Shown: one piece after another, positions 51,514-52,189 of the stretch | Layout of the letters: every line of letters starts with the position of its first letter | Numbering within the stretch: the first letter of the stretch is position 1 | Assembly: GCA_944325885.1 (NCBI GenBank) | Contig: CALVBT010000008.1 | Location: 1 to 64,000, forward strand | DNA length: 64,000 bases | From: Candidatus Gastranaerophilales bacterium | GTDB lineage: Bacteria; Cyanobacteriota; Vampirovibrionia; Gastranaerophilales; Gastranaerophilaceae | Direction: 5' to 3' | The notes under the pieces: model-generated | Databases searched by the model: none | Seen by the model: only the letters and a program-made list of their open reading frames with translations | What the model was told of the DNA's origin: nothing | Made by a program: the position numbers and the translations under genes

Positions 51514-51571
51514 AATGCAAAAAAAAACAGGCCTAATGCCTGTTTTTAAAATGGCTCCGGGACATGGATTC
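51514..51571 (-). repeat. Duplicated tRNA-Gln 3' end plus terminator (distal copy)
   Basis: This segment repeats 51685-51740: same AATGCA start, same CAGGC/GCCTG terminator hairpin, and the same final 20 bases of tRNA-Gln including CCA. It differs only by two extra A. It is not a tRNA gene: beyond the duplicated end the sequence diverges completely. Confidence 0.85.
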
Positions 51572-51633
51572 TCTTCAGCTGTAGGCGACAACGAGAGCCG
51601 TACAGATGAGGATGCTCTTTAGAGTAGAACCAA

Positions 51634-51668
51634 GCGAGCATTGCCAACAGCAATGCGAGTCGGTGAGA
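51634..51668. repeat. Short hairpin motif in the Gln spacer (shared with 52024-52056)
   Basis: GCGAG, stem GCATTGC/GCAATGC with loop CAACA, then CGAGTCGGTGAGA. The matching motif in the Asn spacer has stem GGATTGC/GCAATCC, so one base pair is swapped while pairing is kept. Confidence 0.6.
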
Positions 51669-51684
51669 AGCCGGAGTAAAAGAT

Positions 51685-51740
51685 AATGCAAAAAAACAGG
51701 CCTAATGCCTGTTTTTAAAATGGCTCCGGGACATGGATTC
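51685..51740 (-). repeat. Duplicated tRNA-Gln 3' end plus terminator (proximal copy, in the functional gene)
   Basis: Proximal member of a 56-58 base direct repeat; its right part is the 3' end of the intact tRNA-Gln gene. Confidence 0.85.
51690..51717 (-). terminator. Terminator of tRNA-Gln
   Basis: AAAAACAGGC (51692-51701) pairs with GCCTGTTTTT (51707-51716), four bases after the encoded CCA on the minus strand. Confidence 0.8.
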
Positions 51741-51794
51741 GAACCACGATTAGATGATCCAGAGTCACCTGTCCTGCCGTTAGACGATCCCGGA
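51721..51794 (-). tRNA. tRNA-Gln (anticodon CUG)
   Basis: The minus strand folds as a 74-base cloverleaf with CCA encoded. Acceptor TCCGGGA pairs with TCCCGGA. D-arm stem GTC/GAC, anticodon stem GGTGA/TCATC with loop CTCTGGA giving anticodon CUG, and a T-arm with GTTCGAATC. A promoter and a terminator flank it. Confidence 0.88.
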
Positions 51795-51813
51795 ATATTT
51801 CTGGTACAAATTT

Positions 51814-51841
51814 ATTCTACCACCTCATTAAATAATAGCAA
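51814..51841 (-). promoter_or_regulatory. Promoter of tRNA-Gln
   Basis: On the minus strand TTGCTA (51841-51836) and TAGAAT (51819-51814) are 16 bases apart, 20 bases before the tRNA. Confidence 0.55.
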
Positions 51842-51870
51842 TAAAAATTTTTGAAATAAAAATAATATAT

Positions 51871-51923
51871 GCAATAAAAAAAGAAGGCATTGTGCCTTCT
51901 TTTTTAAAATGGCTCCTCGGGTG
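51871..51923 (-). repeat. Duplicated tRNA-Asn 3' end plus terminator (distal copy)
   Basis: Repeats 52076-52128: GCAATA, the GAAGGC/GCCTTC hairpin with its A and T runs, and the terminal CCGAGGAGCCA region of tRNA-Asn. The loop differs (ATTGT versus TTAGT). No complete tRNA is present here. Confidence 0.85.
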
Positions 51924-51943
51924 AAGGACTCCGTTGGCGAGCA

Positions 51944-51968
51944 GCAAAACGATTAAGTATCGTTTTGC
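51944..51968. repeat. Perfect 10-bp hairpin in the Asn spacer
   Basis: GCAAAACGAT pairs with ATCGTTTTGC around TAAGT. No T-run follows on either strand, so it is not a typical terminator. Confidence 0.5.
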
Positions 51969-52023
51969 GTGTAAGAAATCGAAAACACGTCTATTAAGAA
52001 AGAGCTAATGGAGGGGAGAACCT

Positions 52024-52056
52024 GCGAGGATTGCAGAGCAATCCGAGTCGGTGAGA
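52024..52056. repeat. Short hairpin motif in the Asn spacer (shared with 51634-51668)
   Basis: GCGAG, stem GGATTGC/GCAATCC with loop AGA, then CGAGTCGGTGAGA. Confidence 0.6.
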
Positions 52057-52075
52057 GTCACAGACAAAAATTTTT

Positions 52076-52128
52076 GCAATAAAAAAAGAAGGCTTAGTGC
52101 CTTCTTTTTTAAAATGGCTCCTCGGGTG
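52076..52128 (-). repeat. Duplicated tRNA-Asn 3' end plus terminator (proximal copy, in the functional gene)
   Basis: Proximal member of a 53-base direct repeat; its right end is the 3' end of the intact tRNA-Asn gene. Confidence 0.85.
52081..52110 (-). terminator. Terminator of tRNA-Asn
   Basis: AAAAAAGAAGGC (52082-52093) pairs with GCCTTCTTTTTT (52099-52110) around TTAGT, just after the CCA end. Confidence 0.8.
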
Positions 52129-52189
52129 GGACTCGAACCTACAACCCTTCGGTTAACAGCCGAATGCTCTGCCATTGAGCTACCGAGGA
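52115..52189 (-). tRNA. tRNA-Asn (anticodon GUU)
   Basis: A 75-base minus-strand cloverleaf with CCA encoded. Acceptor TCCTCGG pairs with CCGAGGA; the D-arm contains AGCTCAATGGCAGAGC; the anticodon loop CTGTTAA gives GUU; the T-loop GGTTCGAGTCC is standard. Confidence 0.95.

Follow-up and report, generated by a model that had tools for sequence, protein, structure and literature searches.

The direct repeats downstream of tRNA-Gln and tRNA-Asn in the window (the whole stretch of 64,000 nt analysed, from a Candidatus Gastranaerophilales genome, G000) are not a local feature: about half of the tRNA genes in this genome carry copies of their own ends. We conclude with moderate confidence that both repeats belong to a modular family of tRNA-end repeats, which is spread genome-wide in the Gastranaerophilales, forms an RttR-like variant, and probably owes its start to small mobile hairpins and its amplification to recombination. 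This reading draws on direct observation of the unit layout, the restriction to tRNA ends, the presence and absence of units between species, the variation in tandem copy number and, for one hairpin module, the filled and empty copies of a repeat.

The features of the two units are listed in Table 1. Downstream of tRNA-Gln, the repeated block comprises the terminator and the end of the tRNA at a spacing of 169 nt; the outer flank lies at a spacing of 171 nt because the length of one A-run differs. The corresponding block of tRNA-Asn is 63 nt long and is repeated at a spacing of 205 nt. These measurements bore out the first-pass annotation, which had noticed direct repeats of terminator plus tRNA 3' end at both genes, separated by about 113 and 152 bases without an integrase; the DNA between the copies was 118 bp (Gln) and 142 bp (Asn) long and no integrase was found. 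Neither spacer contains an ORF of ≥80 aa. The spacers share a 20-nt block at 95% identity (51649-51668 and 52037-52056), and both fold better than shuffled sequence, with z values from -3.6 to -6.2 (Asn, -5.1 on the + strand and -5.2 on the - strand). In an Rfam scan of both units, only the tRNAs scored above threshold. An inverted copy of a tRNA arm was undetectable in these two units, which are too diverged, and was detectable over 11 nt in the Asn orthologue of G014.

Table 1. Features of the tRNA-Gln and tRNA-Asn units in the window, and copies of the interspersed repeat elsewhere in the genome.
Feature	Position	Strand	Basis or remark
Intact tRNA-Asn(GTT); duplicated part, last 14 nt (52115-52128)	52115..52189	-	ARAGORN; Rfam tRNA 66.4 bits
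Asn 3' end + terminator, original (hairpin 52082-52110)	52066..52128	-	Direct repeat D1
Asn unit spacer, structured modules between both 3' ends	51924..52065	-	Folds; orthologous in G006, G007, G011, G014, G015
Asn hairpin module P3 (GGATTGC/GCAATCC)	52028..52044	.	Different hairpin in its place in G006
Asn hairpin module P5 (GCAAAACGAT-TAAGT-ATCGTTTTGC)	51944..51968	.	Near-identical hairpin elsewhere in the genome, at tRNA-Leu and tRNA-Pro 5' units
Asn 3' end duplicate (51910-51923) + terminator duplicate (51877-51905)	51861..51923	-	Direct repeat D1, 92% identity
Intact tRNA-Gln(CTG); duplicated part, last 20 nt (51721-51740)	51721..51794	-	ARAGORN; Rfam tRNA 52.8 bits
Gln 3' end + terminator, original (51692-51716)	51690..51740	-	Direct repeat D2, 51/51 identical
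Gln unit spacer; 51672-51677 able to pair with the tRNA 3' end copy (CTCCGG/CCGGAG)	51572..51689	-	Repeat comparison; folds, z -3.6 and -6.2
Gln hairpin module P3 (GCATTGC/GCAATGC)	51638..51656	.	Flanks common to the Asn unit
Gln hairpin module P4 (CTGTAGGC..GCCGTACAG)	51579..51605	.	Type also in Val-gac and Arg-cct 3' units
Gln 3' end duplicate (51552-51571) + terminator duplicate (51523-51547)	51521..51571	-	Direct repeat D2; no Gln(CTG) unit in G001, G006, G014
Empty copies of the interspersed repeat	G000 C4:33682, C1:97088, C1:173752, C7:83985, C3:67414		
Filled copies of the interspersed repeat	G000 C5:23976, C12:21016, C14:14726, C17:21798		

The first-pass annotation had advised a search for the same arrangement at other tRNA genes, and the arrangement recurs. 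We scanned for exact 12-mers of tRNA ends within 600 bp of the tRNA gene. An exact copy of the gene's own 5' end upstream or 3' end downstream was found at 21 of the 43 tRNA genes in this genome, and the counts in four genomes were 21/43, 17/37, 12/38 and 8/36. Reversed words and wrong-side words gave 0, so that the scan contained no 5' words downstream and no 3' words upstream, and permuted flanks gave a mean of 0.25 tRNAs per genome. With controls of 0 to 0.25 tRNAs per genome against 21/43, the Gln and Asn observation goes beyond chance. In two order-level relatives without the hairpin family, end copies were found at 0/18 and 0/20 tRNA genes (0/38). Looser matching added about six tRNAs (Lys-ctt, Leu-tag, Phe, Pro-tgg and two Met); degenerate units escape the exact-match scan, and weak ones were recognised by eye at Thr-cgt (5') and Val-tac (3') in G014. 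A DNA search with the Asn unit returned pieces adjoining other tRNA genes of the same genome. When the flanks of all tRNA genes were read, further units appeared, upstream for 5' ends and downstream for 3' ends. Many were in tandem: three copies of 86 bp at Lys-ctt, two of 95 bp at Ile, two of 142 bp at Pro-tgg, two of 153 bp at Tyr and three of 162-163 bp at Gly-ccc. Most units were 80-265 bp long.

Several regularities were found in the anatomy of the units. First, the copied 5' part stops at tRNA position 12-20, on the D-loop side (one exception at 29), and the copied 3' part begins 12-21 nt from the 3' end, on the T-loop side (one exception at 36). In addition, hairpin modules interrupt the copies at the D-loop or T-loop, and an inverted copy of the tRNA arm is present in 20/32 5' units and 13/37 3' units (p≤0.01 versus shuffled spacers). 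Finally, the commonest module reads CTCTGCCGA-stem-loop-GAGAGG, and the stems of the 145 distinct module cores covary; in the 29-nt class, 94.1% of stem pairs are Watson-Crick, compared with a mean of 70.7% and a maximum of 75.2% after shuffling. The loop is TAAAT in 68 of 72 modules. The 31 G.T against 8 A.C mismatches in the stems point to a structure formed by one strand. On reading the sequences, we also noticed an AT-rich TTGAMAATTRAATA-like stretch that closes each 5' unit immediately before the tRNA. This stretch is reminiscent of the boxA antiterminators of rRNA operons and is missing before several tRNAs without units.

The hairpin module is not confined to tRNA genes. This genome holds 28 modules, of which about 17 belong to tRNA units and 11 lie within interspersed repeats. 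One interspersed repeat, MITE-like and bounded by the inverted ends GAGGTGTAAGAT...ATCTTACACCTC, occurs with and without the module; the empty copies were found by searching again with one repeat after deleting its module. The empty form reads GACTACGAA-GGAGGG-ACGACGAAG and the filled form in the same genome reads GACTACGAA-ACTCTGCCGA...GAGAGGTCAG-ACGACGAAG, the exchange covering about six bases of a loop. The occurrence of filled and empty copies of one repeat indicates that gain or loss of the module does not depend on tRNA genes, and the empty copies could have lost the hairpin rather than never gained it. Nested insertions were also found: the module in the 5' unit of tRNA-Lys in G001 is broken by a further hairpin-rich insert, and that in the 5' unit of tRNA-Leu (gag) in G000 by another one. 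The module was present in 23/23 genomes of the genus, this genome included, and in most genera of the family, and was rare elsewhere in the order; the reversed-pattern control gave 0. GTDB contigs were scanned with a pattern in which GTGGC precedes the hairpin; because this pattern favours tRNA D-arms, the scan served to collect names rather than to measure enrichment. Its matches were Candidatus Gastranaerophilales MAGs or gut bacteria, with single records labelled Melainabacteria, Cyanobacteria, Galligastranaerophilus and Acinetobacter. Of the two loop types, one had 0 matches among viral contigs and the other had 1, and this single match, without tRNA context, looks like chance.

Comparison of relatives gave different outcomes for different units. 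Occupancy at the same tRNA differs among G000, G001, G006 and G014. Val-tac has no unit in G000, three 5' units and one 3' unit in G001, three 3' units in G006 and, by exact match, none in G014; His has units on both sides in G006 and none in the other three; Gly-ccc, read in three of these genomes, has three units in G000, two in G001 and none in G014. Many tRNAs lack a unit in all four genomes. The Asn unit is present in G000, G006, G007, G011, G014 and G015, and in G001 up to the contig end; G015 and G014 have a second copy, that of G014 without its last tRNA end. Its P3 hairpin is swapped for a different one in G006. The unit downstream of tRNA-Gln(CTG) is absent from G001, G006 and G014, and G006, which retains the order of the Asn-Gln pair, has the Asn unit and lacks the Gln unit. 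The first-pass annotation had proposed that a duplication fixed at the same place in all relatives would argue for an old tandem event. This description suits the Asn unit, found in all relatives read in one or two copies, and fails for the Gln unit. Thus, the Asn unit is old and retained and the Gln unit is variable. Given its long conservation, the Asn unit may have been retained for a function. A small HTH_3 regulator gene (51139-51474) directly follows the Gln unit in the window, and a 77% identical helix-turn-helix homologue directly follows the Asn unit in G007, a switch of neighbours suggesting that tRNA-Gln and its unit were gained or lost here.

The relatives compared are different species, whose intergenic DNA is too diverged for exact insertion borders except in the interspersed repeat, and those identified are metagenome assemblies. 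Contigs often end inside tRNA-end arrays (for example, the start of C4 and the end of C7 in G000; 37/168 module matches), so the copy numbers are lower bounds. The arrays explain why breaks at tRNA genes are found in many assemblies of these genomes. Assembly error is argued against by the differences between tandem copies, such as the P3 loops in G015, and by the recurrence of units in independent studies.

The closest layout among the known systems was that of the RttR repeats (rtT RNA, Rfam RF00391). We read the tyrT/tyrV locus of E. coli K-12, where tandem 178-bp units lie behind tRNA-Tyr, each closing with the final 19 nt of this tRNA. Within the unit, the order is inverted T-arm (GGGGAAGGAT), hairpin, sense 5' half of the T-arm (AAGGTTCGA), hairpin insert and tRNA 3' end. 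The Gastranaerophilales 3' units follow the same order, and here too the tandem units close with the tRNA 3' end, starting near the T-loop. The inverted arm is significant in the 13/37 Gastranaerophilales 3' units and in E. coli, and not in the Gln and Asn units of the window. The RF00391 covariance model matched 0/21 genomes of the group and was positive in the E. coli control. The Gastranaerophilales units are therefore built like RttR repeats and are not members by sequence. They differ in that RttR occupies one locus in E. coli, whereas about half of the tRNA genes carry units here, and in that 5' ends are also used and hairpin modules are shared. The E. coli tyrT repeats look like a one-locus curiosity; here, as many as roughly half of the tRNA genes in a genus have the same layout, and the differences between species make the origin of the units open to study. 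We found no report of tRNA-end repeats in Gastranaerophilales in the literature covered, which falls short of most subscription papers.

With respect to the hairpin itself, Elhai et al. in 2008 reportedly described very small mobile repeated elements, termed small dispersed repeats, in cyanobacteria. Like the modules, these are short, non-coding, inserted and nested in other repeats, and from a related lineage. The modules resemble them in having filled and empty sites, whether by gain or by loss, and nested insertions. To our knowledge, small dispersed repeats have not been described as tRNA-end units with duplicated tRNA ends. Judged by their description, they appear to be the closest published analogue of the mobile hairpin. 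GTAG/CGTC REP elements with RAYT transposases (PMC3733652) are likewise short, palindromic and dispersed; unlike in these, no GTAG/CGTC tag was seen by eye before the hairpin. A RAYT engine was rejected, as the Y1 transposase (Y1_Tnp) gave 0 matches in G000 and in the high-copy genomes G007, G011 and G015. Similarly, a retroelement, retron or group II intron was rejected as the engine, as the reverse transcriptase RVT_1 was absent from G000, G001, G002, G007, G011, G013 and G014. No integrase was found in any unit or at any site read, consistent with spacers of the sizes given above and other units too short to encode one.

In this anatomy, a unit consists of a second copy of a tRNA-gene end with its flank, the leader for 5' units and the terminator for 3' units; the copy is cut off at the D-loop or T-loop and filled there with hairpin modules, often with an inverted copy of the arm. 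We propose the following scheme for its origin. A unit might arise through the entry of a small mobile hairpin into a tRNA-arm loop, with re-copying of the tRNA end. Alternatively, copying of the palindromic arm may snap back, restart and re-copy the tRNA end. The tRNA would stay intact and the copy would carry the hairpin. Either route, hairpin entry with re-copying or snap-back copying, would account at once for the duplicate end, the inverted arm and the borders at the D-loop or T-loop. Units would afterwards be multiplied, deleted and homogenised through recombination between their direct repeats, with no element-encoded integrase taking part. A bolder version, which we put forward tentatively and consider possible, is that the units represent mobile DNA of a new kind, directed at tRNA genes. 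Here, a non-coding hairpin would enter the loops of palindromic DNA and, where that DNA is a tRNA arm, would restore the essential gene by copying its end anew; each insertion would leave an intact tRNA and a decoy end, and the RttR repeats of E. coli would be a lone case of this process.

The units may instead be structured tRNA leaders and trailers that are kept for tRNA processing, stability or the stringent response, the roles proposed for the rtT RNA of E. coli. The covarying hairpin with its conserved loop and the excess of G.T over A.C mismatches are expected if one strand folds; the Asn unit has long been conserved, and the layout is that of RttR, an annotated small RNA. However, occupancy is erratic between related species, many tRNAs are unit-free in all four genomes, 3' units such as that of Asn lie behind a strong terminator where little transcription is expected, and the same hairpin occurs in interspersed repeats away from tRNA genes. 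We consider this explanation unlikely.

The first-pass annotation had suggested tiny mobile elements that use tRNA ends as att sites. The units are indeed small, lie at tRNA ends and vary between species; a simple att site is not supported, since no integrase is present, the duplicated end is interrupted, often with an inverted arm copy in addition, and 5' ends are used as well. In a refined form, a tyrosine recombinase acting in trans would recombine small non-autonomous circles at the T-loop or D-loop, the circle would replace the displaced tRNA end, and arrays would represent repeated integrations. According to Williams in 2002, the T-loop is said to be a crossover point for tRNA-targeting integrases. 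As in phages and islands of this class, the 3' part of the tRNA is duplicated from the T-loop outward, the repeat at each site consists of tRNA end plus flank, tandem arrays occur, and presence or absence differs at orthologous tRNAs. Unlike in these elements, there is usually no cargo. Moreover, the repeat differs for each tRNA and has no constant core, which would oblige a single recombinase to recognise many attachment sites; within the unit, the arm is interrupted or inverted, and viral contigs are nearly devoid of the module. We regard this mode of origin as distinctly improbable.

Ordinary slippage that long ago duplicated the tRNA end in tandem, without any mobile part and with hairpins evolved in place, would fit the Asn unit, which lies at the same place in every relative read. 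It is very hard to reconcile with modules that have the same conserved ends at unrelated tRNAs and in other repeats, are filled and empty in one genome and, at tRNA-Lys of G001, are broken by a further insert. Least tenable is the suggestion of the first-pass annotation that the repeats are remnants of deleted genomic islands with both att copies brought close, since, despite the duplicated tRNA 3' ends and a tRNA-Phe unit pair that brackets a larger insert, the units are short, tandem, alike across tRNAs and species and found at 5' ends too, with shared hairpin modules instead of island residue and no larger insert besides that of Phe in the stretches read. A duplicated tRNA 3' end is thus no proof of an island.

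At tRNA-Phe (G000 C2, about 211.6-213.1 kb), two copies of the 3' end bracket about 1.3 kb with a 250-aa ORF, whose product matches ADP-ribosyltransferase exoenzymes weakly and below the cut-off (PF03496, E 0.007). The Phe unit pair may represent gene capture.
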